A stretch of DNA of 64,000 nt, taken from contig OZ005694.1 of assembly GCA_963930775.1 (NCBI GenBank), positions 6,007,054 through 6,071,053 of the forward strand, written 5' to 3'. Positions within the stretch are counted from its first letter, which is position 1; every line of letters starts with the position of its first letter. The position numbers and the translations under genes were made by a program. Positions 3,590 through 64,000 of the stretch are shown in pieces. The notes beneath the pieces are model-generated. The model made no database searches. It was not told where the DNA came from and saw only the letters and a list, made by a program, of their open reading frames with translations. The stretch is from Cliona cf. orientalis. Taxonomy: Eukaryota > Porifera > Demospongiae > Clionaida > Clionaidae.

Positions 3590-6500
3590 ATGCTGAGAGC
3601 TCTTGGTTTGAAGCGGCCCTATGAACCAAAGCCAAGGGCCTGTCACTATGCTGGTGCAATTCGAGGAGAGTTGCTTGTCTTTGCTGGTAGGACAGTAGAC
3701 TTTGATCCGACCAAGGAAGAGTTGTCGTCCACTATCCAAGTCTTTGATCAGTATCTTGAAGAGTGGAGGCAGCTACAGACCACAGGCTGTCCACCTAAAG
3801 GACTGTATGCTGGTGGCTGCTGTATTTCTCCAAGTGGTGATCTGTACGTGTATGGAGGCAGAGATGGGTCCAATTATCGTGGTGGACTCTATAAGTTGTC
3901 TTCTGAGAAATGGAGTCAGTTGTCGGGTGAATCAGATGTGAATAGTCCAATGAAGAAGGGAGGGTGTAGAATGGTTTGTTTTAACTCGAATAAAGTAGCT
4001 GTCATTGGAGGCTACGGTCGACCACCTGCCTCACTCCAGCCTGAAGCATCATTCATCAAGGATAAACGCCTCAGTGATGGACGAGGATGGACAAATGAAA
4101 TCCATATTTTTGATACTGATGAATGTGAGCTAAACTTGAGTAGCCATACACAGTCACTGTTAGCATAAACTCCATGTATCCTCAGGTGTCTGGTCCTCCC
4201 CTGCCATCAGTGGTACTAGACCTCCTCCCTGTGCTGGATTTACTCTCACCAGCATTGATGACTACAGGGCTCTCATGTTTGGAGGAATTGAAGGCGTCAA
4301 TTTAATCAGAACCTCTGAAATCTACCTTATTGACTTTCAGGCATTGGTACAATAATGGTATCCATACACTTATGGTTGCCTTGTCTTGATGTGAATATAA
4401 GCCTAGCATAGTCAGCCCTATTTACATGTAATAATACTTTGTCCCTCTTTTAAAATTTCCAGTACTGGGTGCTGATATTACTTGAAATGTTGGGAATAGG
4501 GGTGCATGAATGGTGTAGAGGTATGGATAGTATTGCACCTAGTATGCCCATGCTTTCTTTTCGGCAAGCAAGAATCATACATACAAGGGTAGGCATGAGG
4601 ATAAAGCTCATAGGTGGAGGAAGCAGGGGGACTCCAGAGTCACGCCCCCCCCCCCCCCCCCAACCAGCCTGAAGTAGGAACAGTGCCCCCCCCCCCCTTC
4701 CAGAGCCACTCAAAGACATGCTATCAATAGTATGACCGCCATTGTTGTTTGATTCTGGTATATGTATCTTGAGTAGGCCTAACTCGAGTAAGGCAAAACC
4801 CTGATCACATTATTATCCAAACATAGAGGAATGAATTAAGGGTTGATATAATTCTGCACAGTGTCATGCTAATTGTACCCCTCCTACTCCTGAAATCTTC
4901 CTCCACCTATGAGGCTACTATCCAGTCTCCTTTGCAATTGAACATAATATAATATTATTAATTTTTGCTATGCAGATTATTATGAAATTGGAGAGACAAG
5001 AGAGAGAGCCATGGCCAGTTGGAAGAGGAGGCCATGCTGCTTGCTGCCTTGGCTTTGGTAGTCAGCACCCTCACCTGCTAGTCACTGGTGGAGTGGACAA
5101 TGATAAGAAGACTCTGAGAGATGCCTGGTTATTTGATGTGACCAACAGAAGGTGGAAGGAGGTCAGTCTTTCAAATAATAACTAGTTGAGTAATAGTTGA
5201 ATGTACCGTATAGCGGGAAATTTTCGAGGGTATTAATTTTCGCTGTTTTCGCGGATCAGGGTGAATCCGCGAAATTTTATACCTCGAAAATTTCCCGCTA
5301 TACGGTATGACTGACGACCCGTTCCTACACTGACTTGGCTCGAGCATGCATGCATGCACAGTCCCACCAGCACATGATATCAGTAGAATGGGTGTGGTCG
5401 ATATAAACCACAAGGAATGCTGAACAGAAAATGCACTATTTGTAGCGTTAGCAAGCCATTTTCGAATGATACTGCCTCCTTTTCGAAGAAAGAGCGAACA
5501 TATAGCTGACATTTTTCTTGGGACGTGTCCAACTATTATTAAAGACTCGGGTTTTGTGACAGCTACAGCGTAGGGATCACGAACTTTGCCGGGCTCTCGG
5601 ATACACGTCAGATTTTCTCCAACTTCAGCCTCCCAAATGCCTTGATACTCATGGTAGCCACGGATCATCGCCTCCACAACACAACTTCGTAGTTCAGCTC
5701 ACTATCTGCTGATTTCCACGAATCCTCGAAAATTAAAACGCGAAAAAGTTCAAAATCCCACATCCGCGAAAATTGCTACCCTCGAAAATTTCCCGCTATA
5801 CGGTAGTCAAGTGTCCAGCAACAATAAAACCTGGTTAATATACAATTGTAACGAACAGGAAACATTATGTAACTGATTACTTCCTGCATTACATCATGGA
5901 CTGTATAAATAGTGTGTGCATGTGTGTATTGTTCAGTTCTCCCTAGTATTTCCCCTTGTTTAATACCTACAACTACTGTAAGAGAGCGCAGGCAGGGAGC
6001 AGTCGTTACAGGTGGGGGCCCGTCCGGGGTCCTGCGACCACTCGCAGGCGCGAGTGAGTCTGCCAACCAGTGTGACTTGGGGAACGGGACTGAGCGTGGC
6101 GTTACACAATACTGTACTCGCTCTAATTATCCGAATGGCCAAAAATAATAATCGATGTTCAGCGTTAAATAGAAAGTACATATTAAATGAATTCGGCCAA
6201 TGGCTTGTTCGAGTGTAAATAGACTGAAGCCAGTTTTTCACCAAGTTTGATTTATTTATGAGTTGCTCAGGTGCCTATATTATCTCAATATAATATTATG
6301 GCGATTTTTAGGCTCATAACAACAACGAAAATATTTCACCCTTGCTGCGCAATGCATGCGGGGTAATAGCTTTTAGTACATTACTATTTGTACTATGATG
6401 AAGCCACACTTCAAAGGAAAAACAGCTAGTACAAACCACATGTACTCTAGGAGTCTCCTACACCCTATGAAAACACTCCCTATTAAATTTTAGTAATGGG

Positions 6501-9500
6501 CAATATACAGTCCATACTATAATACCAGAATTAACCGTTAAACCTTACAAGTACCATGATACCTTACTAGGGTGATATAAACCATCGAGGGGGAGAGCCT
6601 TCACTCATAGCATAGTAAAGGGTTTCCCCCTCTATTATCTTCGATCCAAAGTAGCTGCATGTACAAGTAGCTATAGCTATTGTCATTAACTGAGCACAAT
6701 CTATTGTCGCTATAAAGAACAAGAAAATAAGGGAAAATGTATAGTTTAATATTAAATAGTTGTGTACCACATTCCCAGTATGTCAGAAGCTTTGGCCCCT
6801 ATGAGGCTACGGAATTGTCTGGGCAACTATAGCGAACTAGTCAGGGGGCTGGGTCACGAAACTAATACACTAGCTTGGACCCGCATTCGTAGCCGATTAC
6901 AGAAATTAGATCATATAATTATTATACCCAGACTATGGCCTTATTGCTGTAGAAATTTTTCTTGTGTACTGATGTCTTACCTTCGCTTATTAAATTTTTC
7001 TAGCTATCTACTCAAGCTGCATGAGCTGGATGCAAGCTAGCCGCATCTTTTGGTGTACATTTAGAGTTAGCGCGGCCAACGTTGATGATCTTTACCTCAA
7101 TGATTATGCGCATGTACTATGAGCTAGCGAACACGTGGACGACGTATCGCTATACATACATACATACATACATATAATTATACATATATACATAAGTACA
7201 GCGATTTTCTCGTAGTACTGATTAGTGTGGGGCTCGCTCAGGCTCGCCCCAATAATTGTCTTCCATCGGTAATAATTGAGAGCATAAACTACAAATAGTC
7301 ACCCAGTACAGATGGTGCAAATATTATTTACACCATGCAGCTAATACTGCCTGATGATATTTTGTCAACACGGTGGGTCCACTCAGTGACAGCTATTTCT
7401 CTGGCATCAGGTGTCACTGAGGTCACTATGTTTGGAGGTTCAAGTTCTCCTCACCATCTTGTATATGAAAGAGAAATACAGAATACATGTATAGCAGTAA
7501 CTACCATCATAACATTCGGTGAGTTGAATCTGTTTCCTTGTGTGTAAAAACAGGGTGTGATTTATATAATGTCATAATATCATAAACTACTGTGCCCCAG
7601 TTTCAGGCCAATATTATGACTCTGTTGCTAGAGAGTATGGGACTTATCAGGGCCAGTGCCACTATGATTCTTCAGGAAGGAAGGCTGTTTTTCAGGCAGA
7701 CTTTACCTTGTCTCTGTCTAGCCTCGTCTCTAGACCCTTTGATGACCAGAGAGGACAGACTAGAGGCAAGGGGATGAGGCTAAGTCTTATCTTAAGACTG
7801 GGCATCCTCAAACTATTCTTCCAAAGCTGCTTCAGAGTCTCTCTGGTTTACTTAGCTTTCTCACTGCTGCTTTAGCACGAAAGTAAGTCCTCCAAGTCCT
7901 CCTGTCTTCCTGTGCCACATTTTCATCAAGTGAGCGCCATGTGGCACGCGTTTCTGAATCTCGAGCTAAGCTAAATCTAGTGATCTTCACCAGAAAGATG
8001 AATGATCTTTGCCAAAAATTAATAATGCATTCCAAAAGCGTGACGGATATCCATACAATGCTAGCTGCCAATCCCTGGTCCGCTGTCCACAATCCAATGC
8101 CTCATGCTAGTGCGCTCGAGCAGTATAATAATAATATAGTTACTAATGATTGACTAAGGAACTGAAACAAAGAGTGGATAGATATCAAAGCCCTAGGTAA
8201 AAACTGTCCCCCTTCCCCTTCTAACACACGATATCGCCAATATATCCATTATTCAGAGGTTGCACTTGTGTGTAGCATGCTTCTTAGTCTCATATGCCAG
8301 CCTCTATGGCAAAAAATTTGGAAAGAGTAAATATAAATACCCTGGTAGCTATAATTATTATTCGGGCCGAGCCTGAGCGAGCCCCAAATACATGAGAGAC
8401 AGGAAGTGGTTTCATATGTATACCATCTATGCCCTAATTTAGGCGCCCTTTGACCTGCTCGTAAATTTTTTGGATCTAATTGGAGGCGGGCACTGAGATG
8501 ACCTGTACAGCGTAGGCAAAGCCATGAAACTGGAAAGGTGAGTGCTGGACCACTGTGATAAGGCTTAGGTTCATAATAAACATCATTGGTAGATCTACTT
8601 TCCTGAGCATGAAGGTAACTGAATGCAGGCTTGTCCTATGATGGCTGATATGTAGACTGGAGTACACTGCACTATCACTGCCGGGACTACTAGGCTAAGC
8701 AGTATATGATATTTGCACTCTCTCATGATAGCTTCTCAGACCTATGCTATTAGTCTAAGGCTACTACTAATGCAACTGACTGATATGCTGTTATAGTTTG
8801 GGGTACCATTGTAGCCCCATGCCGTTGTGCTTTCAATTATGATTTTCGCGAAGACTCGCCCGCACAGATGATTTTCATCATCACTAGTTATCATTATTTC
8901 ATACGAACTACATGTAACCAATGAATGCACAGGAGTGCAGAACCCTCACCGCTACATGTATGCATATAGTATGGCTCACTCTGTGCATGTTCAATATCAA
9001 CAATCAGGAGTCAGGAGTATTGAACTACATACACCTGAACAGGATACTGGTACATGGTGTACTACAAACACTGCACCTCAACAGGGTTCTGATGCTAGAG
9101 TCAGTGGTCTAAGAGTTGGGGGAAGGCACCTGGCTATAAAATGAAAGCCTCTGTGACACACTTCAACTGAATTATGCACTTGAGAGCCACAGCCTGTTTA
9201 CACTGTCACTGCATTGACAACTGACCAGCAAAGCACAGAATGGCAGCAGTTGAGATAGGTGCCATGTAAACACAGACTGGCAAGTTGCAACAGCTGCACA
9301 CTACTCCTGCACTGGGCAGGACTTAACATGACCACTCTTCCTTATGCCACGTATACCATACTTTCTCTATAACGACCCTTACCATTTAGCAAAAGAGGGT
9401 TGCGACGGACGGACGGACGGACAGACAAAAATTGCCAAACGATTACAGTAACCCCTCTGCCTATGCTTTGCGGCAAGGGTTAACTAGAGCCCTATAGAGT

Positions 9501-11908
9501 AACTACCCCTCGCTCTGCAGTGTTGATGTGAGAGCCATACCATGCCACATGCATAAGCCATAAGCCTATTGACGACATTTACCTACATATTGTGCCAGGT
9601 TGTACGCATGAGCAGAAAGCTCATGGTGGGTAGTGTTGATAGGCATGGCCAACAAAATAAAGTACATGTATTTGCGATGTTCATGGACCTTGCCAAACGA
9701 TTCGAAGCATAATGAAGCCAGTTTTTTCGATGATATCGATGGATATGCTGTACTTATAAGTCGCTCAGACGCCTAGATCTCCAGATTCTATCTCCAGATC
9801 TGGCAATTTTTGTGCTGACGACAACAACAGGCAAAACCGATTACTTTACCCCTTGCACATTTGCGCAGAGTAATGAGGTTGCAGAATTAGGTGTCAACAC
9901 ATGTGTTCACTAAACAAGGTATAGATTAAGTTTGCTAAACTGATCTTAAGTGATTTGTGGTCATGTTCAATGATGCCACGTGCATTCCAAGGGGAGAAGT
10001 GTACTCTTGATCCTTCATTGGAGAAGCTGGCATGCAAGATTATACATGTAATTGTTATGCTTCTTGGATGTACATGTACATGTAGTGATTAGCTATTAAT
10101 TCTATTCAGAGTATTCTGAGAGCACATGGCATTTGGTGGGTGTGGCTAAAACTGACCAGTTGGGGTCCAATGAGAGAATCCAGGAGAAGATTGAAAAGAT
10201 TAAACAATTTACCAGAGCAGCTCCAGCAGTGTCCAGTGGTGATGGAGCTGAAGTAGAAGGCTTGAGGGATGCCTTGAGGGCTGTACAGATGAGGGAGAGG
10301 GAGCTACAGCAACAGCTGGAAGATGCTAACATGAGAGTGGAGCAAGAGAGGGAAAGAGCTATGGTAACAGCTAAAATTTAATAATTATTAGCTATTATGT
10401 TACTGTTTATGTAACAAGTAACTTCGAGAGATAGTAGGCTAGTAAATTCAACACTTGAATATATCTACACAGTGATGTACATGCCAATAAAACCACTGGC
10501 AATAGATAATGGGATAGCCATGACTCAGCCATCCCCTAGCTTTTCTATTTTTCATTGTGCAATATGGCATAGTGCAACATTAAGAAGCTGGGAATGTAGG
10601 GGCCTGGGTGACATAATTCCTATAGCTAGATTAAGTCTCAATTTTCATGTTCATATGGGGCTTATGTGTCAGTACAGCACTATACAAGTATGCACCCTAA
10701 TTAGTTATGTTTGTATGTGTGCGTGGGGCGGGGAATATATAAAGTGGAACCTCTTTATAACAGACAAGTTGGTGCATGAGGTTTTGTTATTCAGAGGTAT
10801 CCTTTATTGAGCGATTTCATCATAATAGTGTTTATTTATCTTCTTACATGGTTAAGATTGTTAAAATAGGAATATCTTAATAATAATAATATTATTGGTG
10901 GACTTTAATTTGGTGATTGGCTGGTTGATCTGCCAAATCACCAAATTTATTTTTCTGGTTATTATGGTATCATGCTTTCTACTAAAGGAAATTGAAAATG
11001 AAAGAGATGAAGTTGTAGACCAGCTTCAGCAAGAGCAGCAGCAGCTCCAGCAGCAGCATGAGCAGGAGTGTCAGAGATCCCAAGAGAGGGTGGAGTATGC
11101 TGAAGTGAGAGCCAGAGAGGCTGAGGCTCAGCTACGTCAAGTCCAGTCACACTGGATCATTCCAAGGAGTGAGATTGAGCTCACCAAGGAGAAGCTTGGC
11201 AAGGGAGCTTGGGGGAAGGTCAAGGTAGCCAAGTTCAGGGGAACCCGTGTCGCTGCAAAATGCTACCACCAGATTCTTCTCTCTGAGCACAACCTTCGGC
11301 TGTTTCGTCGTGAGATCAGCATGGCCGCTCGTCTTCGCCACCCCAACCTGGTCCAGTTCATTGGAGCTTCAATAGAGGGAGAGCTGATTCTTGTGACAGA
11401 GCTGATGACGACAAGCCTAGGAGCTTTGATGCACTGTGGACCACTCAGAGAAGCCAACATCACCTCCATCAGCCTGGACGTAGCTCGAGCCCTCAACTAC
11501 CTCCACCTGATGCAGCCACACGCCATCATCCATCGAGACATTTGCAGCGGTAATATTCTCCTCGACCCACTCCCAGAGGACCGCTGGAAAGCCAAAGTCT
11601 CCGACTATGGCTCAGTCAATCTTCTCCAGCACCTGACCACAGTTTATCCTGGGAATCCCTTCTATGCAGCCCCTGAATCTGAATATCCAAGGCTTCAGAC
11701 AGCAAAGATGGACATCTACAGCTTTGGCGTTCTTTTAGCAGAGATGCTGACCAATGAGCTGCCAGAGAAGAAAGATCGTCATCGACAGATTCTCAAGATC
11801 TCTGTGGAGCGACCAAGCTTTGTTGGACTAGTTAGGCAGTGTCTTAGTGAGGAAGGAGACCATCGCCCCTCTGCTCAAGACATAATGACACAATTTAGTG
11901 ATACATAA
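3590..11908 (+). CDS. Kelch-propeller / coiled-coil / TKL protein kinase, copy 1 (intact, 6 exons)
   Basis: Exons 3590-4124, 4186-4346, 4976-5161, 7341-7518, 10110-10363 and 10988-11908 join in frame to 744 residues; every intron is GT..AG and the phases match. Residues 1-400 hold about six kelch blades (FAGRT, VYGGRDGS, IGGYGRP, FGGIEG, TGGVDND and FGGSSS, with Trp/Tyr strand partners). Residues about 400-495 are a Gln/Glu-rich coiled coil. The kinase spans about 500-744: Gly loop GKGAWGKV (509-516), Lys529, alphaC Glu547, gatekeeper Thr575, HRD 620-622 with Asn627, DYG (644-646) in place of DFG, and APE 666-668. The catalytic loop reads HRDICSGN, so the usual HRDLK lysine is Cys. All catalytic residues remain, so activity is likely. 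The nearest group is TKL; the substrate is unknown. Start chosen because MLRALGLKRPYEP is conserved across copies. Intron 3 holds MITEs and an LTR. Confidence 0.85.
4646..4698 (+). repeat. Two poly-C tracts in intron 2 of copy 1
   Basis: Two runs of about 14 and 11 C (within 4646-4661 and 4687-4698) lie in intron 2, separated by a short spacer. Matching G or C runs occur at 43311 and 44688 in unit 5. They can form G-quadruplexes on the opposite strand, and their exact length is often unreliable in assemblies. Confidence 0.6.
5204..5307. mobile_element. Palindromic MITE, TACCGTATAGCGGG family
   Basis: Perfect terminal inverted repeats: TACCGTATAGCGGGAAATTT opens the element and its reverse complement closes it at 5307. 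The interior also folds back (…TTTTCGC…GCGAAA…). The same end recurs at 5805 (right end only) and in a diverged element at 50300-50467. Diverged traces (TATAGTGGGAA…) persist in intron 2 of copies 3, 4, 6 and 7, so the family has a long history in this locus. It lies in intron 3 of kinase copy 1. Confidence 0.75.
5700..5805. mobile_element. Second TACCGTATAGCGGG-family end in intron 3
   Basis: The right terminus TTTCCCGCTATACGGTA (ends 5805) matches the 5204-5307 element. The inner half (CGAAAATT…CGCGAAAA) is related but no good left terminus is seen near 5700. Either this is an incomplete second copy, or 5204-5805 is one ~600 bp composite in which 5308-5699 is carried sequence related to the hairpin-ended family (a GTGGGTGTGG-like and GCATGC-rich stretch at 5330-5470 resembles 23990-24080). 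Confidence 0.5.
5847..6030 (+). mobile_element. Short LTR plus primer-binding-site-like sequence (LTR retrotransposon relic)
   Basis: 5847-6010 begins TGTAACGA and ends TCGTTACA, an 8-bp perfect inverted terminus of the LTR type (TG…CA). It contains a TATAAATA box at about 5905. Two bases downstream lies TGGGGGCCCGTCCGGGG (6013-6029), one mismatch from the TGGGGGCTCGTCCGGG binding site for the 3' end of tRNA-Pro used by many LTR elements. About 160 bp of possible leader follows, but no gag or pol frame and no second LTR are visible, so this is a 5' fragment. It sits in intron 3 of kinase copy 1. The PBS assignment rests on recalled tRNA end sequence. Confidence 0.55.
6031..7340. other. Rest of intron 3 of kinase copy 1
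   Basis: No supportable gene. 6215-6370 resembles the right part of the hairpin-ended family (CCAGTTTTTCACC…GCGGGGTAA, diverged). 7157-7176 is a CATA microsatellite. 7229-7249 holds a GGGGCTCGCTCAGGCTCG motif that recurs inverted at 8364-8386 and at 16805. Short open frames here lack homologous counterparts in other units. Confidence 0.5.
7519..10109. other. Intron 4 of kinase copy 1 (2.6 kb, repeat-rich)
   Basis: The intron is much longer than in copies 3 (333 nt), 5 (390 nt) and 6 (650 nt), so it has been inflated by insertions. 9395-9480 carries a GGAC tetranucleotide repeat next to a degraded hairpin-family end; 9630-9870 is another degraded copy (AGCCAGTTTTTTCGATG … GATCTGGCAATTTT…). 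8740-8900 is similar to 21160-21400, the flank of kinase copy 2. A short frame at 7600-7690 (YYDSVAREYGTYQGQ) looks peptide-like but has no counterpart elsewhere; no gene is claimed. Confidence 0.5.
10742..10815 (+). mobile_element. Left end of a Tc1/mariner-like MITE (internally deleted)
   Basis: AGTGGAACCTCTTTATAAC followed by AGACAAGTTGGTGCATGA matches the left terminus of the fuller element at 30013-30780 in intron 5 of copy 3; the right end of the same family is at about 40795-40835 in intron 5 of copy 4. The insertion therefore predates the array duplications, and each copy kept a different part. Confidence 0.6.
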
Positions 11909-29184: not shown

Positions 29185-29226
29185 TCATTGTGGTCAGTGT
29201 AGTTGCAACTACACTGACCACAATGA
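29185..29226. repeat. Perfect 42-bp palindrome
   Basis: TCATTGTGGTCAGTGTAGTT followed directly, around a central GC, by its exact reverse complement; no spacer. It lies 45 bp before the hairpin-family element. It would extrude as a cruciform and could be a tiny foldback element or a transposon footprint. Confidence 0.8.
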
Positions 29227-29270
29227 CCCACCAATTATTAGTGGGTGCTAGGCCCACCCTAAGCCAGCCT

Positions 29271-29904: not shown

Positions 29905-30012
29905 GACACAGTGACAGCTACTACAGTGCAGCCTAAGCAGGATGCTACATACTGGCTATTTTTTCTGGAAAATGTCTGATGTCCAACTGTTATCATAAAA
30001 TCTGTATGTATA

Positions 30013-40118: not shown

Positions 40119-40363
40119 AATATGCAGAGAGCACATGGAATTTGGTGGGTGTGGCTAAAACTGACCAGTTGGGATCCAATGGAAGACTCCAGGAGAAGAT
40201 TAAGCAACTTGCCAGAGCAATTCCAGCAGTGTCCAGTGGTGATGTAGCTGAAGTAGAAGGCTTGAGGGATGCCTTGAGGGCTGTACAGATGAGGGAGAGG
40301 GAGCTACAGCAACAGCTGGAAGATGCTAACATGAGAGTGGAGCAAGAGAGGGAAAGAGCTATG

Positions 40364-45140: not shown

Positions 45141-46952
45141 ACATGAAGAGGGGCCTGAGAACATGGTCACTAACACTGCACCAGGACACACACAGGATAC
45201 TCAGTCTCGGTAATGTGATGATCCTTCACTGCATGATCATGACTGAGGGAAACAGTTTATTTTGCTGATACCAGACACTTGGACTGCATGCTATTATAGT
45301 CTAACTGAAAGAGCTTCATGAATGCTGCAGTGGGTAGTAGGATATCGGTCACATGATTGTGGCTATTACATTTTTTGGAAATCTCCTATTCGAATTCCTC
45401 AAAACTCAAATGGTCCTTACTTGGTTTTACAATCATTTTCAGATTAGGATTCTAGGAGTATTATGAGATAATTTCTCATCCCCTGAATGTGACGAGGATA
45501 TAATTATAATAACGATTAGGGCTTATTTGAGTGAGCTGCGTAAGAAGGGGCAAATATATACATAGCAGCAAACTTTATAAGGGGGGGGGGGATAAAAAAT
45601 TATAAAATTCAATATAGGGAAAGCAAATTGAGAAGGGGAGGGGGGGCAAATCAATCCAATCCAATCCCGGGGGACAACCCCAATAATTAATTCCTAGCTG
45701 ATGCTACAATCATGTACGTCATGTCACATTGTTTTTTTACACCAGCTAACACTTCCTGATAATATTCCGTCAACAAGAAGGGGCCACTCAGTGACAGCTA
45801 TTTCTCTGGCACCAGGTCTCACTGAGGTCACTATGTTTGGCGGTTTGAGTTCTCTTTACTCAGAGGACTGTATAGCAGCAACTACCATCATAACATTCGG
45901 TGAGTTGAATCTGTGTCCTCATCGTATGGATGATTGGAGGGGGGTATTTGGGGTTTCACGAAACCTCCCTATCAGCTGGATCTAGTATCTTAATCTCACA
46001 TGTGCACAGTCCCTCCTGTGAAAAATCACGCAAGGATCTTATAAGTACCGGGTATATATCCCCAGGTAGAATGCATGAACTACTAATGATACTGTATCAA
46101 TACACGTGTTCGCTATAAGCAAGATATCAATTATTAATGAAGATTCTTTGCGGACAATTTAACTGTTCGGACATTAATATTTACCAGACACTCCTAATTT
46201 TCGTAGGAGAAGCTGGCATACATGTGAGACTTTAATTATTAAGCTTCTTGGATGTACACATGTAATGATTAGCTATTAATTCTATTCAGAATATTCAGAG
46301 AGCACATGGCATTTGGTGGATGTGGCTAAAACTGACCAGTTGGGGTGCAATGAGAGAATCCAGGAGAAGATTGAAAAGATTAAGCAATATGCCAGAGCAG
46401 TTCCAGCAGTGTCCAGTGGTGATGGAGCTGAAGTAGAAGGCTTACGGGATGCATTGAGGGCTGTACAGATGAGGGAGAGGGAGCTAAATCGAAGGATTGA
46501 GGTAAATTATTATTTTTGTTAAAGTTTTTAGCTAAAGCCCTACATTGCAACTTCAATATCAGTGGCATAGGAAAATGTTCGAGTACGTAAAAGTGTGCAC
46601 TAGAGTGCATAACAAGAGAATCTTTTGACTTAAAACCATTCCCAAATAATGCTGCCTATTTCGGTCAAGTTTCTCGGTTTCATCAATGCTGTTATTTGTG
46701 TGCACTGCATGTGTGTATATGAGATACATGTGCGTATTACGGTGGCAGAGGAGGACACTGCTACGGCGACCCAAGCTGCTGTGGGACGCCCGAAAGCCGC
46801 GGCGGCCCTCCGCAGCTCAGCTGTGCCTGCCAATTTGTTTGAAAAATTATTCTCTAGCTTACGACTGGTTAACTGTAGCTATACAATATTAATCTGAGAC
46901 TATCTTTAATTTTATTCCGAGACTATCTTTAATTTTATACACCAGTAGCTGA

Positions 46953-47356
46953 TTACCCCGCGCGCATGCGCAAGAGGTAAAGCAATCGGTTTGTATGTCT
47001 GTTGTTGTCGTTGTCGTCGTCGGCACGAAAATCGCCAGATCTCGAGTTCTAGGCGTCTGTGCGTGCTATAAGCACAACCAATCGGTAGATATCGGTGAAA
47101 AAATGGTTTGTACGCGCTTCGAATTTCTCGAAAAAGCTTACTAGTTCTACAAATCGTGCATTTTCTGTTCAGCATGCCTGTGGTTTATCGACCACACCCA
47201 CTCTTTTAGTATGCGGATGCGACTGCGCATGCTCAAGCACTGTGTTGTAAAGGGTCGTCACGTCATGAAACCGCTACATGTGTGTCTCATAGTATTGCAA
47301 TACTACGCTAGAGTGGCTACAGGGCGCGCGGGGTATGTGCTCTATAGAGCTCTAGT
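46953..47356 (-). mobile_element. Hairpin-ended element, near-identical to 24219-24617
   Basis: Reverse complement of 24219-24617 with only a handful of differences over about 400 bp (for example CAACAACAG against CAACAG). TTA occurs immediately outside both ends and may be a target duplication. It lies in intron 5 of copy 5, absent from intron 5 of copies 1, 3, 4 and 6. No coding capacity. Confidence 0.7.
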
Positions 47357-47702
47357 TATTAATTGTTATCTTCTCTGGTGTAAGAGCCATCTATGAGTGT
47401 GTAAGTGTACTAAATTTTTTTTACTAAAGGAAATTGAGAAGGAAAGTGGTGAAGCTGTAGACCAGCTGAGTCAGCAAGTTCAGCGAGAACAACAGCTGAG
47501 TCAGTTACAACAAGAGCATCAGCAGCTCCAACAACAGCATGAGGAGGACTGTCAGAGATCCCGAGAGGTGGTGGAGTATGCTGAAGTAAGAGCCAGAGAG
47601 GCTGAGGCTCAGCTACATCAAGTCCAGTCACACTGGGTCATTCCAAGGAGAGAGATTGAACTCACTGAGGAGAAGCTTGGCCAGGGTGCATACGGAGAGG
47701 TT

Positions 47703-48151
47703 TTTTTTTGTTTTTTTTTTGTATATAATAGTTTTTGCATTCTTTGCAAAGGACATACAATAGCATAAAAATTAATGCTAATATAGAATGTGTGCCCAAA
47801 ATTAATGAAGTTAGTAGTGAAACGATGATTAAAACTTAATTAAGCTGACTCCACACATTTAATTTGAACGATGATAAAGAACAGGAGAGCAAGTCCAGAG
47901 GCAGTGAATTCCATGCTTCAATCGAGCGAATAATGAAGGAGTTCTGAAACTGATTGGTATGGAAACTTGGGTATGCAAAGTACAAATGTTCAGGGTGGTT
48001 TGATGTAGCTCGAGTTGCTCTAGTGGCATGATGCTGGCGTATGATATCGGGAGGAAAGTAGCACAGGCTGTGAACAATCTTGAACATAGTACAAAGATCA
48101 AAGTAAAGTCTCCTCTGCTCTAGAGATGGAGCCTGAAAAAGTTCCAGTTCC
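47703..48151 (-). mobile_element. 5'-truncated LINE fragment inserted in the kinase exon of copy 5
   Basis: On the minus strand the frame reads SLEQRRLYFDLCTMFKIVHS … SIEAWNSLPLDLL and stops at 47836. This is the C-terminal tail of a non-LTR reverse transcriptase, similar in layout to the tail of the 23-2848 ORF (RRQHAKL-HLFKII … AAWNSLP) but a different element. A poly-A tail, seen as T on the + strand, lies at 47701-47720. AGGTT is repeated at the borders (47698-47702, 48152-48156). Removing it restores the kinase reading GGAGAGGTTAAAGTAGCC. Confidence 0.8.
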
Positions 48152-48821
48152 AGGTTAAAGTAGCCAAGTTCAGGGGAACCCGTGTTGCTGCAAAATGCTA
48201 CCACCAGATTCTTCTCTCTGAGCACAACCTTCGACTGTTTCGTCGTGAGATCAGCATGGCCGCTCGTCTTCGCCACCCCAACCTGGTCCAGTTCATTGGA
48301 GCTTCAATAGAGGGAGAGCTGATTCTTGTGACAGAGCTGATGACGACAAGCCTAGGAGCTCTGATGCACCGTGGACCACTCAGTGAAGCCAACATCACCT
48401 CCATCAGCCTGGACGTAGCTCGAGCCCTCAACTACCTCCACCTGATGCAGCCACACCCCATCATCCATCGAGACATCTGCAGTGGTAATGTTCTCCTTGA
48501 CCCACTCCCAGAGGACTGCTGGAAAGCCAAAGTCTCCGACTATGGCTCAGTCAATCTTCTCCAGCACCTGACCACAGCTCATCCTGGGAATCCCTTCTAT
48601 GCAGTCCCTGAATCTGAGTATCCAAGGCTTCAGACGGCAAAGATGGACATCTACAGCTTTGGTGTTCTTCTAGCAGAGATGCTGACCAATGAGCTGCCAG
48701 AGAAGAAAGATCGTCATCGACAGATCCTCAAGATCTCTGTGGAACGACCAAACTTTGTTGAACTAGTTAGGCAGTGTCTTAGTGAGGAAGAAGACCACCG
48801 CCCCTCTGCTCAAGACATAAT

Positions 48822-49177
48822 CAGGGCCGTAGGAAGGGTTTCACAACTGGGGAGGCTCTAACTATGTAGAGCTTTGTGGCAATTAAGCGCGCGCGCAAAT
48901 TTTTAAGCCATGCCCAAAAATAATTAAACCACGCCCAAAATCACACCGTTCCGCGATCGTGAGCAACTCTATTGGCTTATCACCTATCGTAGGACTGTGG
49001 CTTGCGCTCATACCTATAGATGACGAACTTGCTGAATCAGTACCAGCTGGTTTGCATGCGGTTAGCATACCAATCGTGCGCACGCACGAACGTGCATATT
49101 TATATGGTGTTGAAATGGATGGCACAAAAAGTGGGGCGGCTCGAGCCGCCCCTGCCGCCCCGCCTCCGACGGCCATG
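48822..49177. mobile_element. 356-bp TIR element at the kinase C terminus of copy 5
   Basis: Starts CAGGGCCGTAGGA and ends TCCGACGGCCATG (inverted, imperfect), with ATAAT duplicated at 48817-48821 and 49178-49182. It carries no transposase. It shifts the frame: the kinase now ends in IIRAVGRVSQLGRL, and the original end (MTQLSDV) is displaced to 49186-49204. Confidence 0.7.
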
Positions 49178-50691: not shown

Positions 50692-50739
50692 ATAAACCAA
50701 AAACCACATATCTACTGTACATGTAGCAGTTGATCTTCT

Positions 50740-51597: not shown

Positions 51598-54500
51598 CAC
51601 CTTACATCATGGCCATGCTAAGAACGCTTGGTTTGAAGCGGCCCTATGAACCAAAGTCAAGGTTCTCCCACTACGCTGGTGCAGTTCGAGGAGAGGTGCT
51701 CGTCTTTGCCGGAAGGACAGTACATTTTGACAAGATCAAGAAAGAGTTATCATCCACTATCCAAGTCTTTGATCAGTATCTTGAGCGGTGGAGGCAGCTA
51801 AAGACCTCAGGCTGTCCACCCAATGGACTGTATAATGGAGGCTGCTGTGTTTCTCCAAGTGGTGACCTGTACGTGTATGGAGGCATTGATGGGTCCAATA
51901 GACATTGTGGACTTTACATGTTGTCCTCTGAATTGAAATGGAGTCAGTTGTCAGATGAATCAGATGTGAATGGTCCAATGAAGAAGAGCGGATGTAGAAT
52001 GGTCTGTTTCAACAAGAAGAAAGTAGCTGTCATTGGAGGCTATGGTCTACCTCCTGCCTCACTCCAACCTGGAGCATCATTCATCAAGGACTCAGACGGA
52101 GATACATGGACTAACGAAATACACATGCTTGATACTAATGAATGTAAGTAGTGATCGTATTAGTCTGTGGTGCTGACAGTATAGTATAACTCCATGTATC
52201 CTCAGGTGGCTGGTCCTCCCCTGCCATCAGTGGTACTAGACCTCCTCCCTGTGCTGGCTTCACTCTGATGACTACAGGGCTCTCATGTTTGGAGGATATG
52301 ATAGAGAACATCAAATTAGAATCTCTGAAATCTACCTTATCGACTTCCAGGCGTTGGTACAATAATAGCTAAGCCAATGCATGCACTTAGAGTATAGTGG
52401 AAAATTTCACATGATGCAAGGTATATCTACAGTAGCTATATTATAGATAGATCCTTCTGCCTAAAAAAAGAACTTCACACAACAACAACAACATAATAAT
52501 AATAATAGTATTATTAGCTGATAGTGGTATGGTGTTACTGGAGCACAGGCACAAATTGTTTTCACTGTGTCACTATGGCTGCCTTTAAGTTATCTTATAT
52601 GATGCAAATATCTAGCAAGTTTGATCAGCCATATTATTATAATATTATCGGCCTTGCATGCATGTACTGTGTCCTCATGTGTGCCCTTTTGCAGAAGTTC
52701 TTGATGTTGGATGCTGATATTGATTTGGGAATATACATCATATAAAGCTATATCCACTTTCATGACATTCCTTTTAGGAAGCAATAATATTAAACAAGGC
52801 CTATAGGCTACGCATGGCTACTATTATTATAATATGGTGTCCGTTCTCTTCTGATCATGCTTACATGTTTTGCCGTGCAGATTATTACCAAACTGGAGAG
52901 ACAAGAGAGAGAGCCATGGCCAGTTGGGAGATCATTGCATGCTGCTTGCTGCCTTGGCTTTGGTAGCCAGCACCCTCACCTGCTAGTCACTGGTGGACTG
53001 GATAATGATGGCAAGACTCTGGGAGATGCCTGGTTATTTGATATGACCAACAGAAGGTGGAAGGAGGTCAGTGGAGTGGGTTAGCTATAAATAATTATGT
53101 ACCTACTTGGAGGCATAATATCATACAACCACATGCAGGTCCCCCCGGACCATTAATTTTATCTTGCTAGAATGGGTATCATGCACCCAAAACATCGTGT
53201 GTTGCATTGTAGTTGTCCCAATTTAATAATTGGTCTCCCTTGGTGTTTTCAGTTTGTACAAAAGTAGATGTACATACAGATTGCGCAATGTGCGCATGCA
53301 TAAGTTATCCGTGTTCTACAGAGCTCTTAGACTATAGTTATTATTACATCATCAGATTAGTATATCAGTGCATGGAAATAGATATAAGTAACTTTTTTGA
53401 CTATTATAGCTATAAAAATTGTGAATTTAAGAAAAATAGCGGTGCTGCTTAGTTATACAATGATATCTGATTCAGCTAAAAATTCACTGATTCTCTCTCT
53501 GCCCCAAACCTAAACTAGAAGTGCTATACTAGCTACCTACATTTAGCTATTAATATTATAGTTTATAATGCTAGCTATACCAATTGCTGTGATGGCACTC
53601 AACCAGTGATCTCAGGCATAATTATTATAAAAATAATATTATACAGGTTGATTGCATGAGTATTCAGCCCACAAGCCGTCAAGGTGTATTTCTTATCCCC
53701 TCAAAGTGCCTGGGGACGAGGATACCAATAGAATGCAAGCTAATTGTTATTTTAACTTTCCTGTGATATTCTGGTAATTTAAAAGGTCATCAATTCTCTA
53801 CATTAAGATACATACCGGTATATGAAAGTCCTAGAATGCGAATTTTCTTGCACTAATTAGATCTTGCTTTTATTAGTTATGCCATAAACACATGATAGCC
53901 AATCCCTATTAGCTGATGCTACATGTACGCTTTAATTTAGCTGGTAAACTTAATTTTATAAGGTCTGATAATATTATTATGTCATGTCACATCATGAATT
54001 ACACCAGTTGACACTACCCGATGATATCCAGTCAACAAGGTGGGTCCACTCAGTGACAGCTATTTCTCTGGCACCAGATCTCACTGAGGTCACTATGTTT
54101 GGAGGTTCAAATTCTCCTTACCTTCTATATGGCAGAGAGGCACAGAAGACATGTATAGCAGCAACTACCATCATATCATTCGGTGAGTTGAATCTCATTG
54201 TGGTGTATAAAGAGGGTGTGATTACCCCGCGTGCGCATCTGCAGCAAGAGGTGTTGTCTGGTCACCACGAAAATCGCCAGAGCTGCAAGACTATAATACT
54301 GCATCAAAATTTTAGATTGTGCTTTACACTTTCTTTGCCACACATAATAATACAGGAGGCTTCAACATACAATTTAGTCTTCATTCTGTAAAAATCTATC
54401 GAATAGTTGCGGAGATATGATTGTTTTAAATATCACAATTTTTCTGCCAGGCATGTGTGTGCTATAATTATTCAAATAGGCCATATTATTATGGTACGTA

Positions 54501-55240
54501 ATAATAATATTATTATTAAGTTTATTGATTGCTTTAGAGGACTATAACTCAAAAACTACACTACTGATTGACTCCAAACTTGATGTAAGTATACCTTTCT
54601 GCTTATTCCACTGCCTCAGAATTCCAGAAGCTGGCTTCATGCATGATTTTTGAAATTGCTAATTTAGACATCCGCTCAAACACATGCAATAAGCTCTCAT
54701 AGTGCTAGTGGTACACACACATATTCACACATGCACATGCAGCACACAGGTGCATAATAATAACAACATTTTCTGAAGTGTCTTGAAGTATAAGACGTCT
54801 GCCCCTGCACATACTACATTAACCCTATTCAGAATATTCAGAGAGCACATGGCATTTGGTGGTGCGGCTAAAGCTGACCAGTTGGGGTCCAATGAGAGAA
54901 TCCAGGAGAAGATTGAAAAGGTTAAGCAATTTGCCAGAGCAGCTCCAGCAGTGTCCAGTGGTGATGGAGCTGAAGTAGAAGGCTTGAGGGATGCCTTGAG
55001 GGCTGTACAGATGAGGGAGAGGGAGCTACAGCAACAGCTGGAAGATGCTAACATGAGAGTGGAGCAAAAGAAGGTAGCTAATAATATTCTTCATATGACA
55101 TTCGATACTAGCTAAAATATTATAGCTTCATAGCCTTGTTCCCAAGCTCACCATTTTTTGTACAGGTGGGGGAGAGGGAGCTTCATCAACTACTGGAAGA
55201 TGCTTATATGAGAGTGGAGCAAGAGAGGGAAAGAAATAGG

Positions 55241-56850
55241 GTAAGGCATGGCAAACTAAACTCACAGTATATCATCACAGACTGTTCAATTTTGCATGCG
55301 GGCAGGTGGTCATTATTCAGATTTCAAACTAGTACTAAAAAGAATGCAAGAAATGCTAGGTTCGAACTCTTGATCGCCGAGGCCACGCCCTTCGATGGCA
55401 GTGCTTGATGGGGCAGAGTTAAAGTGCAATATAGCTGCTGTGTCTATACAATTTGAAATCTTTTGAGAAATTCTGAAAATCCATGCGGGTGGTGACATTA
55501 CATGTACACTCGACATTACATGTACACTGTACATTCAGATAATATTATAGCTTCTACGTTCACCCTAGGCCCTATTTGATATAGCTACTTACATCATAGC
55601 TCATAATCAACGAATTAGAATATTGGAGACCAAATTAAACTCAAAGCCATGGAAATCGAAGTACATTCACTAGAAATATAGTCGTTGCCTGGACAGGTGT
55701 ATAGCCTGTCACAACTGATACTGCTCTACACTCAAGCATTCAGTTTTTCTAATTTACAGGCTACGATCTTTGATTACCAACTTCACCAGAATTGCTGCAG
55801 AAACTCACGATAATTTGCTATGTTAATCTTGTGAACAGGTAAATGACTTCAAAAGGCAGTAGGCTAGTAAACTCAATAATTAACATCTGCACAGCAATGG
55901 CAATATAGATAATGGGATAGCCGTGACTGCCGTGACTCATGATCAACCATGACCTCCTACATTGTAGCTACTTCACGTTGAAAGGGAATGAGGCTCTTAC
56001 ATATATAATAGCTTCCTGCACATGTACCTATAACTATAATATTATAGATAAAAGATTTTATGTATGCAGTTAGCCTCGTCCCCAGGGGAGGAGAAAGTGT
56101 TGTTTGCGCATGCTTTGTTAACCTAAGAATCTTAGGGGATCATATTATACTATCTTTCCCTTTGACATAATTCCTCGAGCTCGGGCGGCCCAGAAATGAC
56201 AGGCGTGGGTGGTTTGAGTTTTGAGTGAGATTTCGAGTTAGCTCGACGGACATTACCATGTCGATCAACGAAGGATTTTGAACTGCGTGGGTCCACTTTG
56301 GCACAAGCACAAATGTAAAGGTCAGGAGGTCATCCCGTACTCTTTAGATATGTGTGTGGACCGTTTCACTTATCAGCACGTGGTAGAAATTAGTGTACAG
56401 CGACCTTTATCTCTGCCTTTACATAATTTTTTTAAGGAAAGATTGGCACATGCTTAAACAGTTTTTACCAGGCCCTTTCTCCACCCCGGGACAAAGCTCT
56501 AGTGTGCAGTGTACATGTGTGGGCCATTATGTATCAATCCAGTACTATGATAGAGCATTCTTATCAGTGTGAGTGTGTGTGAGGGGAGTATGTGTGTAAT
56601 GAACGTATGTACTCTAACTATTGACTCAAATATTAATGTTTAATTTCCTTATGTTATTCTCATTATTACATCATATTATGTCATCTCTCTATGTATTATT
56701 GCTACTTCCTGAATAATAATCAGTCTTGCCATAATGATACCAGTGAAGAAGTGCATGCTCAAGAGCTGCTGGGCAGAGGTCTTTTACATGTGTATACTGC
56801 ATGACATTGTGATAATATTATCTTATGGGTTACTCTTGATAAATACATAT
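55241..56850. other. Intron before the kinase exon of copy 6 (left part)
   Basis: Mostly unique sequence. 55370-55385 contains GGTTCGAACTC, a tRNA B-box-like string, but no matching A box. 56130-56470 is GC-richer, with TGACGACC-like motif CGACCTTTAT (56401). No gene supported. Confidence 0.45.
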
Positions 56851-57234
56851 TACCGTAGAATCCCGCGATTACGCCCCCCCCTTTGTGCATGTTAGGATTG
56901 GGCAAAAGTGGGGAGGGGGCTTATACGCGGGATCCTAACATTTCCGTGTGACGACCATTACCGACCGCCGAATGCACGTGGGCGCGCGATCTCTGTACTT
57001 TCTCTGGCTGTTTGGTGGGCAAAACTCGAGAAAAACGACAAAGTAAGGCATGTGATGACACAAATAGCTAGTTTGCTAGCTGTAGCTACTGTTTTTATTG
57101 ACTTATGGACTCCATTTTACAGTCAGGGAGGGGGGGCTTATACGCGAGACAAAACTACCTATGCAGGAACTTGAGCTAAAAATGCAGGGGGGGCTTATGC
57201 GCGAGGGGGGGCGTAATCGCGGGATTCTACGGTA
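56851..57234. mobile_element. MITE with TACCGTAGAATCCCGCG ends in intron of copy 6
   Basis: TACCGTAGAATCCCGCGATT at 56851 and AATCGCGGGATTCTACGGTA ending 57234 are perfect inverted ends, followed by poly-C/poly-G tracts and repeated GGGGGCTTATACGCG units inside. 384 bp, no coding frame. It contains TGACGACCATTACC (56949). Confidence 0.8.
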
Positions 57235-58632
57235 CATACATTCTATGTGAGTATAAACGTACTAAAATTAATATGTACCCACTAAAAGGAAAAAGATGAA
57301 GCTGTAGACCAGCTGAGTCAGCAATTACAGCAAATCCATCAACAACTTCAACAAGAATACCATCAGCTCCAACAGCAGCATCACCAGCATGAGCAGGAGT
57401 GTCAGAGATTCCAAGAAAGGGTGGAGTATGCTGAAGTGAGAGCCAGAGAGGCTGAGGCTCAGCTACATCAAGTCCAGTCACACTGGGTCATTCCAAGGAA
57501 TGAGATTGAGCTCACCAAGGAGAAGCTTGGCAAGGGAGCTTGGGGGAAGGTCAAGGTAGCCAAATTCAGGGGAACCCGTGTCGCTGCAAAGTGCTACCAC
57601 CAGATTCTTATCTCTGAGCACAACCTTCGACTGTTTCGTCGTGAGATCAGCATGGCCGCTCGTCTTCACCACCCCAACCTGGTACAGTTCATTGGAGCTT
57701 CAATAGAGGGAGAGCTGATTCTCGTGACAGAGCTGATGACGACAAGCCTAGGAGCTCTGATGCACCGTGGACCACTCAGTGAAGCCAATATCACCTCCAT
57801 CAGCCTGGACGTAGCTCGAGCCCTCAACTACCTCCACCTGATGCAGCCACACCCCATCATCCATCGAGACATTTGCAGCGGTAATGTTCTCCTTGACCCA
57901 CTCCCAGAGGACTGCTGGAAAGCCAAAGTCTCTGACTATGGCTCAGTCAATCTTCTCCAGCACCTGACCACAGTTTATCCTGGGAATCCCTTCTATGCAG
58001 CTCCTGAATCTGAATATCCAAGGCTTCAGACGGCAAAGATGGACATCTACAGCTTTGGTGTTCTTCTAGCAGAGATGCTGACCAATGAGCTGCCAGAGAA
58101 GAAAGATCGTCATCGACAGATTCTCAAGATCTCTGTGGAGCGACCAAACTTTGTTGAACTAGTTAGGCAGTGTCTTAGTGAGGAAGGAGACCATCGCCCC
58201 TCTGCTCAAGACATAATGACACAATTAAGTATTAGTGATGTGTGAGACAAGGTAACATATTAATGATGTTTTGTGTACTCAATAAGTATGTTAGCCATTT
58301 TTCATTTCCAATTGAAATTAACATTCTTTGTACAACCCTAGAAATTCTAAGCATTCAAAATGGTAATTATGCTTGAGTATTATTGTGAGTAAAAAAAATC
58401 CCTGTTCCCATAAATGAATTAATGTGGTGAACGTTTTTAGTGCTTATTTTCAGCAGGCTATGATAACACTTCTTGGTTAAAAATATTTATTATAATAATA
58501 ATATTATTATTGTCTAAATTACCACAATGTCATGATATTTTATAACTAACTCGCTAACTGCATACCATACTAATGTCAACTCAAGAATCTGTATACCGGT
58601 ACTTAAAATTAGAGCACATCCACTGTAGCTAG

Positions 58633-61431: not shown

Positions 61432-61442
61432 CATCTCGGATC

Positions 61443-62219
61443 ATGGCCATGCTAAGAGCGCTTGGCTTGAAGCGGCCCTATGAACCAAAGCCAAGGGCCT
61501 TCCACTATGCTGGTGTAGTTCGAGGAGAGTTGCTTGTCTTTGCTGGTAAGACAGTAGACTTCAACAAGACCAAGGAAGAGTTATCGTCCACTATCCAAGT
61601 CTTTGATCCGTATCTTGAGCAGTGGAGACAGCTACAGACCACAGGCTGTCCACCCAAAGGACTGTATGGTGGTGGTTGCTGTGTTTCTCCAAGTGGTTAT
61701 CTGTATGTGTATGGAGGCCATGATGGGTCCAAATGTCGTGGTGGACTCTACAAGTTGTCCTCTGGGAAATGGAGTCAGTTGTCGGGTGAATCAGATGTGA
61801 ATAGTCCAATGAAGAAGGCTGGATGTGGAATGGTCTGTTTCAACAAGAAGAAAGTAGCTGTCATTGGCGGCTATGGTCCACCACCTGCCTCACTCCAGCC
61901 TGGAGCATCATTCATTATAGATAAATGCCACAGTTATGGACATGGATGGACGGATGAAATCCATACTTTTGATACCAATAAATGTGAGCTAAACTTTATA
62001 CAGTAGCTATATATAGCCGTACACAGTCACTATTAGCATAAGCTTCATGTATCCTCAGGTGGCTGGTCCTCCCCTGCCATCAGTGGTACTAGACCTCCTC
62101 CCTGTTCTGACTTCTCTCTCACCAGCATTGCTGACTACAGGGCTCTCATGTTTGGAGGAAGGGATGAGGTGCATTTAATCAGAACCTCTGAAATCTACCT
62201 TATTGACTTCCAGACACTG
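61443..62219 (+). CDS. Kelch-kinase copy 7, exons 1-2 (continues beyond the window)
   Basis: Exons 61443-61983 and 62059-62219 are open and join in phase (234 codons): MAMLRALGLKRPYEPKPR start, then FAGKT, VYGGHDGS, IGGYGPP and FGGRDE kelch strands. Differences from copy 1 include Asp-to-Tyr in GYLYVYGG and Glu-to-Lys at the exon 1/2 border (DTNKC). Exon 3 is not found before 64000. The usual sequence just upstream of it (TTCCCAGATTTTCACC…GCTTTTCAGCGAGC) is at 63470-63566 and is then interrupted by unrelated DNA, so the remaining exons should lie beyond the window. Whether this copy is functional cannot be judged. Confidence 0.65.
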
Positions 62220-64000
62220 GTACAATAATAGCGCTCATACACCTACACAGTATAGTGGGAACTTTTCACATGGTGCAATCAGTTTTTTGTCGCAGTAGTA
62301 GATAGCTAGATCCGGCTTCTGCCTCACATATATAAAATCTTGAAAATATTCAATTATGTTAGCTGTGATCTCATTGGAGCACAGGCACAAATTGATGGTA
62401 TTGGGAGGTAACTCTGAGAAATTTTACTTAGGCAATTATTACTATGGGCACTGCATGCTTATGCATGTATGCTGGACTATACTTTATGGACACATTAATT
62501 TTAATTTTAGGTTATAAAATTATTATAGCTATATCCCACTCTGATTCTCAGTCCTTCATTATATATGTGTCATTATGGCTGCATTATCTATCATGCACCC
62601 AATATCTTGGTCAGCCCTATAATAATTATTATATAATATATCCCACCTATGTATACTCTTCTACTATAACAAGTGGGGTATAACTGTGATATATTCCCTC
62701 CCTGAGGGGTACAAGGGAATATTATATGATCCATAATTATATTCCTCCCTGTGGCTATTATTTTGACCAACCAGAGCCATTGTTTTAGTTCACACAAGCA
62801 GTCGTGTCATTATACCTAATACATTTGCGTGTGCACCAGCACTAAGGCATGGGCACCATACAACATAGGCATGCATGACAGTAGATATTGTTTACACAGA
62901 CACGGAAACTCACGCGCACTAATTGATACTAATCATGAACCAATTAGCTATCGCTCGATCTGACAGTTCTACCACGTGGCAAGTTCAACAGTACAGTGCA
63001 ATGGCAAGTGAACTGTAGTCCAAATCTAGATACATATAGCGTAAATCCATTCAGTAGCCATTGCCTGAGTTGAACAGTGAAACTATTTTAATATTTTCGA
63101 AGCTACCTGACTGTCTTCTATTCACAGAAAGTTGAAGCACTAGTTGATACAACTAGCCATGGTTCCGTGACTCAAGCCATCCGTCATCGGTTGTGTCTTT
63201 GCTGGTTTGTTTTCTGTGCAACTCTCTTTCTGTTCAAAACTGTTGTTGCTAGGTTAGAACAGTTGTTGCTATGCATGTAGACTACGGTGCGCATGACTTT
63301 TAGCCAATCAGGTGGGATATATAATAGTTATAGCACGGTTGCCAGGGATTTATGGCGACGTAAACCACCCTTGTCCTCGGGCTACGCCCTTGGACTCGGG
63401 TCGGTTTACTGCCATAAATCCCTGGCCCCGTGCTATAACTATAACATATTTCCCTGTCCTCAGGCCCTTCCCAGATTTTCACCATTGGATACTGATGTTG
63501 AAATGATCAGAATATAGGGTGTGGGTAGCATCACACCTGCAATGTCCATGCTTGCTTTTCAGCGAGCAAAATTGAATATATATAGCTACCGTACCCTCTC
63601 GAAAGAGGGCCCATGGGCGGTGCACCTTACATTGGGCCAATATTCGAGGTATCGGTATCGAGTTTATACGCGAAAGAACGCCCAGGTAAGTTACTCACGC
63701 TAGCTTCATAATTTGAATAGTAGCAGCTACTACTATTGATTTCAGCCATTATTCAAGCACGGTAATACCAATCCAGAGCAAGGGTGGCTGTGATACTTCA
63801 CCGTGTGTCTTAGAGTGCAGCCTTATTAAGTGGGCATGGCTACGATCGCTAGCTGTGTACCGGCTCGTTTATTTCCGCTGAAACGTGGCATAAAGCTAGC
63901 TAGGCTTAGTTTTACAAACCAGCCATTTGAGCTGCGTTTTCAAGGGTAGGTACACATCATGCATGGGCGCATATTTGAGTAAACACTAGACCTTAGCAGG
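62220..64000. other. Intron 2 of kinase copy 7
   Basis: 62247-62270 carries the TATAGTGGGAA trace shared by intron 2 of the other copies. 63325-63441 is a foldback MITE. After 63570 the sequence no longer matches the other units; 63570-64000 holds only short frames. No other gene seen. Confidence 0.5.
63325..63441. mobile_element. Foldback MITE, GTTATAGCACGG ends
   Basis: TAGTTATAGCACGG…CCAGGGATTTATGGC on the left is mirrored by GCCATAAATCCCTGG…CCGTGCTATAACTA on the right, around a GTCCTCGGGCTACGCCCTTGGA centre. About 117 bp, no coding capacity, inserted in intron 2 of copy 7. Confidence 0.75.

Follow-up and report, generated by a model that had tools for sequence, protein, structure and literature searches.

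A tandem array of kelch-propeller kinase genes with a diversifying predicted pocket in the sponge Cliona cf. orientalis

By what means animals that have neither antibodies nor a major histocompatibility complex (MHC) discriminate between self, symbionts and pathogens is an open question, and the receptors of sponges are hardly known; graft rejection in sponges is classical, and Cliona cf. orientalis hosts photosynthetic dinoflagellates. Here we report the analysis of a 64,000-nucleotide stretch of chromosome 6 of this sponge (odCliOrie1.1, C6:6007054-6071053; hereafter the window, to whose positions all coordinates without a chromosome refer), which holds part of a tandem array of genes joining a kelch propeller to a protein kinase domain, and ask what such an array serves. 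Codons at the predicted rim of the propeller pocket diversify among the copies, whereas the propeller frame, the loops of the opposite face and the kinase are under purifying selection. Judged from the sequences, the array is probably a family of soluble sensor kinases that evolves by tandem birth and death, with a variable pocket and a role in recognition.

The gene and its predicted protein

The six exons of copy 1, all on the plus strand, join to exactly 744 residues without a stop (tblastn and splice model), as the initial annotation had proposed. Exon E1 (3590..4124; also supported by Pfam kelch matches) encodes kelch blades 1-3, E2 (4186..4346) blade 4, E3 (4976..5161) blade 5, E4 (7341..7518) blade 6, E5 (10110..10363) a linker and the first half of a predicted coiled coil, and E6 (10988..11908) a Gln/Glu-rich predicted coiled coil, the kinase domain (Pfam Pkinase, 2.4e-34) and the stop codon. 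Exon borders and phases are common to the array copies. The mapped array exons have AG acceptors in 19/19 (E2), 16/16 (E3), 16/16 (E4) and 15/16 cases (E5), and GT or GC donors in 19/20 (E1), 19/19 (E2), 16/16 (E3) and 16/16 cases (E4); for E5, a GT or GC donor is present in just 11/16 cases.

Four dispersed paralogues (L069-L072, at C6:9.94, C8:4.12, C2:4.41 and C6:8.17 Mb) were compared with copy 1 by tblastx. Their kinase exons are 52-59% identical to that of copy 2 and their E1 exons 39-46% identical to that of copy 1. In every one of them, E1, E2, E3 and E6 follow one another in the same order on a single strand, with E2 collinear throughout; all six exons were found in L069 and L072, E5 was not found in L070 and E4 was not found in L071. 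Since exon order and strand are kept in these diverged paralogues and the splice sites are kept as well, there is good evidence that the kelch and kinase exons form one gene, and the proposed fusion of kelch propeller, coiled coil and kinase gains support from it. A look for an RNA fold in the E2 donor region found nothing.

The propeller of copy 1 matches the KLHDC2-like kelch family of Pfam (PF24681; 122.7 bits against a cut-off of 50, 1.8e-35), has KLHDC2 as its closest match in the PDB (E 2.7e-20) and carries six GG-bearing blade motifs that can be aligned to KLHDC2. By sequence comparison, the best PDB matches of the kinase are CTR1, TNNI3K and FERONIA, and the tyrosine kinase CSK ranks lower. 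Of 20 mapped E6 exons, 15 passed a motif and length filter (U03, U05, U11, W3 and W4 failed; the E6 of W5 was not mapped as a single exon), and all 15 kinase frames have G-loop, VAxK, DYG and APE-type motifs, with HRD in 14 (HLD in U01). The stretch initially called Gln-rich is 18% Gln and just as rich in Glu (18%).

Judged by hydropathy alone, copy 1 has no apparent signal peptide or membrane-spanning segment (the highest mean over 19 residues, 1.34, lies inside the kinase; N-terminus 0.47), and the protein is therefore probably cytosolic and soluble. The suggestion of a receptor-proximal kinase is thus not borne out, and a soluble sensor kinase fits better. The 12 Pfam hits of the full 744-residue product include neither NACHT nor NB-ARC, so the protein is not an NLR.

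Diversification of the predicted pocket rim

In the array alignment, differences between copies recur at fixed spots of the blades. Homology to KLHDC2 served to assign the ligand surface of the propeller (residue numbers were counted in chain 8sge_A of the PDB alignment), and a rule was written that takes, in each blade, the residue directly after Gly-Gly and the two residues before the residue that opens strand A; these pairs appear in the aligned copies as PR[xx]H, L[xx]GGCC, KK[xx]C, PPPC[xx]F, VGR[xx]H and STR[xx]H. The ligand contacts of Keap1 fit the same scheme. In the alignment with copy 1, R236 of KLHDC2 directly follows GG, and S269-W270 immediately precede the strand-A His. A KLHDC2 study describes the acid group of the ligand as held by R236, S269 and R241 (PMC11470957).

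The 18 positions of the rule, all retained whether variable or not, are given in copy-1 numbering with their codons on the plus strand. They comprise A17 and C18 (before strand A; 3638..3643) and R34 (after GG; 3689..3691) in blade 1; Y73, mostly Tyr, and the variable A74 (3806..3811) and R91 (after GG; 3860..3862) in blade 2; the highly variable G124 and G125, mostly Gly (3959..3964), and Y142 (after GG; 4013..4015), which is Tyr in every copy used, in blade 3; A195 and G196 (4233..4238) and I213 (after GG; 4287..4289), aligned with KLHDC2 R236, in blade 4; G250 and G251 (5027..5032), aligned with S269 and W270, and V272 (after GG; 5093..5095) in blade 5; and W306 and V307 (7374..7379) and S328 (after GG, mostly Ser; 7440..7442) in blade 6. 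The counterpart of R236 is Arg, Tyr, Lys, Ser or Ile in the array, and that of W270 is among the most variable columns.

The mean pairwise amino-acid difference was 0.629 in the 18 pocket columns and 0.150 in the 326 others, a contrast that none of 100,000 permutations reached, and pocket columns make up 13 of the 25 most variable of all 344. Ratios of non-synonymous to synonymous substitution rates (dN/dS) obtained by counting were 2.18 for the pocket, 0.46 for the rest of the propeller and 0.27 for the kinase; split by exon, the pocket gave 1.95 (E1), 2.73 (E2), 8.82 (E3) and 0.81 (E4), so that E4 alone is not above 1. A two-partition codon model was then fitted with separate dN/dS (w) for the pocket and the rest, and twice the log-likelihood difference (2dlnL) was taken against a pocket w of 1. 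It yielded 4.31 against 0.47 for E1 (14 units; 2dlnL 72), 7.68 against 0.68 for E2-E4 (12 units; 2dlnL 68) and 5.68 against 0.51 for E1-E4 (9 units; 2dlnL 130), with a w of 0.35 for the kinase (14 units) and of 0.46 and 0.24 for opposite-face loops fitted as controls. A pocket w of 4-8 against 0.35 in the kinase supports the earlier view of a rapidly evolving recognition family, for which dN/dS had been named as a check.

The signal is tied to particular codons and is present in apparently intact genes. Shifting the nine-codon E1 set by 1-6 residues in either direction (twelve sets) removed it (w 0.09-1.35), with w of 1.0-1.35 for sets one residue off and 0.09-0.20 for sets two or three residues before. 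The pocket w was 5.7 in six apparently intact units, a set that includes U01 with its shortened E6 start and HLD motif, and 3.8 in five other units, of which four are broken and one, U15, has an altered E5 end. The nine complete pockets are all distinct, differing on average at 12 of 18 residues, as are 13 of 14 E1 half-pockets. Exons that carried two or more stops or a net frameshift had been dropped, which left 15 of 20 E1 exons (without U03, U05, U07, U12 and U13), 18 of 19 E2 exons and all 16 mapped exons of both E3 and E4; U08, with an insert in E1, was excluded from the E1 tests and U13 from the kinase test, and the stop in the E1 of W4 was masked.

For the other clusters of related propellers in the genome, the pocket rule was carried by alignment onto their E1 exons; out of 28 E1 loci together with L101 and L102, the codon fits used 22, while L059, L060, L061, L063, L085 and L090 were used only in a comparison of dispersed paralogues and L091 and L097 in none. 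The seven copies at C7:3.92-4.47 Mb, about 30-35% identical to the array, differ by 0.762 in the pocket against 0.136 elsewhere and have a pocket w of 17 (2dlnL 84; 8 of 9 positions alignable). The four copies at C6:8.15-8.17 Mb have a pocket w of 3.7 (2dlnL 15.8). The controls gave 0.55 and 0.026 for two sets of four copies each at C7:1.09-1.17 Mb and 0.88 for three copies on C13. Strong diversification thus belongs to particular clusters.

Two side observations concern related genes. L066 (C7:1143813-1147334) has similar propeller exons followed by a different kinase, which belongs to a second large family with at least 150 matches in the genome, which suggests that propellers and kinases were joined on more than one occasion. 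Clusters of kelch genes also lie at C5:10.3-10.8 Mb and C1:0.51-0.68 Mb, many with single frames of some 700-900 codons, and are perhaps BTB-kelch genes.

The array and its copies

The genome searches covered one haplotype of one individual, 216.8 Mb in 149 contigs; the genome note gives a total of 217.17 Mb in 307 scaffolds and a consensus quality of QV 58 (PMC12639293). The array spans about 286 kb (C6:5821388-6107245) on the plus strand only and extends far past the window. Between these limits, searches with the kinase exon and with E1 found 21 loci each, those of the kinase exon at 89% identity or more, and 22 units were mapped, named U outside the window and W1-W7 for copies 1-7. Seven units do start inside the window, as the count of seven copies in 60 kb implied, but the array as a whole is far larger. 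The reported six kelch-bearing copies and six kinase exons of the window were recovered by tblastn with copy-1 exons, the E1 exons at 3590, 24824, 36444, 43389, 51615 and 61449 and the kinase exons at 10988, 21486, 31191, 41472, 47481+48151 and 57289.

As 175,287 of 297,001 bases of the array were read, the integrity of several units is known in part. Exon by exon, U04, U06, U09, U10 and W1 appear intact, as does W7 apart from an unread part of E3; U01, with a short E6 start and HLD in place of HRD in its kinase, is doubtful. Six or seven of the 22 units thus look apparently intact, and copy 1 alone does so among the six copies wholly inside the window. Copy 2 (21486..22478) is a kinase exon E6 alone; between the kinase exons of copies 1 and 2, no match to E1-E5 was found (plus strand at E < 0.01, minus strand at E < 0.001). 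Copy 3 (24824..32093) has E1, a split E2, E3, E4 and frameshifted E5 and E6, and copy 4 (36444..42387) has six exons with ATA as start codon, a stop in E1 and a frameshift and a stop in E6. Copy 5 (43389..48861) has an inverted E3 (44783-44968, minus strand) and a split E6, and copy 6 (51615..58245) has frameshifts in E2 and E5. Copies 2-6 lie on the plus strand, as does copy 7, of which E1 and E2 (61449..62219) are in the window and E4-E6 beyond it at C6:6071741-6073698. The proposed local expansion with frequent pseudogenisation is evident in these copies, with copies 3-6 broken and copy 2 an orphan kinase exon. Assembly error was considered as the cause of the broken frames and judged unlikely given the QV stated in the genome note (PMC12639293).

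The kinase of the array has at least 128 matches in the genome at E <= 1e-10 (128 of 938 candidates scored), so that the family belongs to a far larger set of kinases. Among kinase exons elsewhere, those at C1:6258714 and C6:5421738 are 79-80% identical to that of copy 2, with no kelch E1 match seen nearby; they may be orphans like copy 2 or be fused to something else.

Pairwise distances between units correlate weakly for most exon pairs (r -0.33 to 0.24; 0.17 for E1 and kinase), with the exception of E2 and E4 (r 0.50; 3 of 2000 permutations), and divergence in 11 units is lower in the kinase part (0.050) than in E1 (0.115). Copies probably exchange sequence, which would keep the kinase homogeneous and reshuffle the blades; alternatively, the weak correlations are noise in short exons.

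Upstream of the E1 start of copies 3-7, at a distance of 23-32 bases, lies the box GTGGGTGTGG (24800, 36421, 43357, 51588 and 61422), which has nine plus-strand sites across the whole window; copy 1 has the variant GTGGGTGTGT at 3566. Among 26 other loci shown, GTGGGTGTG also lies upstream of the dispersed paralogues L060 and L067. A promoter element common to the copies is a possible reading of this box. A repeat of 98.5% identity in opposite orientation (24216-24617 and 46953-47357), close to copies 3 and 5, may be a young mobile element or an inverted duplication, and about 377 bases at 17749-18125 match their own reverse complement at 92%, a large palindrome that is perhaps a mobile element.

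Interpretation and comparison with known systems

In the mechanism that we propose, the central pocket of each propeller would bind a short peptide or protein end of its own, in the manner of KLHDC2 and Keap1. Ligand binding, or clustering through the coiled coil or helical linker, would bring kinase domains together, which could then trans-phosphorylate and pass on a common signal, so that many copies would provide many specificities with one output. The role would probably be the recognition of non-self, altered self or symbionts inside the cell. More tentatively, and with rather less confidence than in the family itself, the array may represent an unrecognised class of intracellular variable receptors in sponges, soluble kelch-propeller kinases in long tandem arrays that each have a peptide pocket of their own, read foreign, allogeneic or symbiont peptides and signal through a common kinase. 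If so, it would parallel, in an animal, the propeller NLRs of fungi and the receptor kinases of plants, and kelch-kinases could govern symbiont or allograft recognition in Cliona cf. orientalis.

Several points weigh against reading the array as a family of sensor kinases for recognition. The pocket rule was written after the array alignment had been inspected; it misses 12 of the 25 most variable columns, some in neighbouring loops and some not (C130 is in a strand), and 5 of its 18 positions vary little (Y73, G125, Y142, G250 and S328), with Ser as the counterpart of S269 in 14 of 16 copies. Predicted structures of E1 and E6 were too poor for use (mean predicted local distance difference test, pLDDT, 34 and 38), the first 47 residues of E6 being the sole part of its model above 50, and the opposite-face loops were assigned by motif rather than by structure. 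The heptad signal of the coiled coil, another element of the initial annotation, is weak to modest, 45 of 1000 shuffles being equally good. All w values are rough because trees were fixed, branch lengths were globally scaled and recombination between copies is probable; among the shifted E1 sets, the fit at +3 failed to converge (negative 2dlnL). The other clusters are semi-independent, their sequences having been inspected before fitting. In the cluster at C7:3.92-4.47 Mb the w of the rest is 1.1, and a look for its partner domain in the 3.65 kb downstream turned up blade 4, with no kinase among frames at least 50 residues long. No control set exceeds 1, but two of three are indistinguishable from w = 1 and only the value of 0.026 is clearly below. 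In eight mixed dispersed paralogues the pocket differs by 0.825 against 0.547 (58 of 20,000 permutations; amino-acid differences only), so that some pocket variability is general. Finally, the copies in the window are mostly broken.

This last point bears on whether the pocket merely drifts under relaxed constraint in a decaying array of mostly dead copies, as five broken copies among the six complete in the window might suggest. Drift does not push w well above 1, and with a w of 5.7 in the apparently intact set and the signal lost on shifting E1 codons, we regard this explanation as very improbable. Scarcely more credible is an origin of the changes in the pocket codons by gene conversion or targeted hypermutation instead of selection. 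Exons are probably shuffled or converted, to judge by the weak correlations of exon distances, and several E1 pocket codons vary at positions 1 and 2 with position 3 nearly constant; few third-position changes are, however, expected anyway with a dS near 0.2, hypermutation would have to be precise to the codon at many scattered places in four exons, and conversion would affect the flanks too.

We likewise see little chance that two neighbouring gene families, one of kelch exons and one of kinase exons, alternate along the array. The orphan kinase exon of copy 2, the kinase exons at C1:6258714 and C6:5421738 without a nearby kelch E1 hit and the kelch unit U07 without a kinase hit would all fit such families, but order, phase and strand are the same in about 20 units and in the four dispersed paralogues. 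A more serious alternative, though still an unlikely one, is a family for endogenous substrates, in which each propeller recruits a different host protein to the kinase and diversity reflects subfunctionalisation of ordinary signalling instead of non-self recognition. It accords with the resemblance to substrate receptors such as KLHDC2 and with the related C7:1.1 and C13 propellers, which keep conserved pockets as fixed substrates predict. What it accommodates less well is that closely similar copies show a w of 4-8, that the pockets of all nine units with a complete one are distinct and that much gene death has occurred, a pattern more like an arms race.

A family of sensor kinases with a recognition role, the reading that we prefer, can be set beside several known systems. 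KLHDC2/Keap1-type substrate receptors, which are conserved E3-ligase adaptors, share the kelch propeller and, in R236 and S269 of KLHDC2, contacts after GG and before strand A; the array differs from them in its attached kinase and in a pocket that is hypervariable among many tandem copies. The closest matches of the kinase domain in the PDB, the Raf-like CTR1 and TNNI3K, are tyrosine-kinase-like (TKL) kinases. Plant receptor-like kinases also couple a varied sensor to a constant kinase; in the array, no membrane span is seen, there is no LRR or LysM, and the sensor is a kelch propeller. Kelch reportedly features in a survey of the trypanosomatid kinome (PMC1266030), and we know of no tandem array or hypervariable pocket in protist kelch kinases. 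No description of hypervariable kelch-kinases was found in the open-access papers searched, which does not prove that none exists; variable propellers with constant effectors are already known, and it is this combination of parts that was not found described there.

The array is thus a concrete candidate whose pocket is stated and of which six or seven paralogues look intact. Two more clusters diversify at these positions, related propellers in which the pocket is conserved provide built-in controls, and the question can be addressed by ordinary binding and expression assays. Its closest working analogue is the fungal family of WD-repeat NLRs (HET-D, HET-R and relatives in Podospora), in which a propeller serves non-self recognition and diversifying selection acts on four positions per repeat on the interaction surface (PMC4986451). 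The array departs from it in having kelch rather than WD40 repeats, a kinase as effector and no NACHT, and its diversity lies between paralogues, whereas that of the fungal proteins arises by shuffling of internal repeats. The logic of the fungal system, a variable propeller face on a constant effector, is suggested to have re-arisen here with another propeller and another effector.

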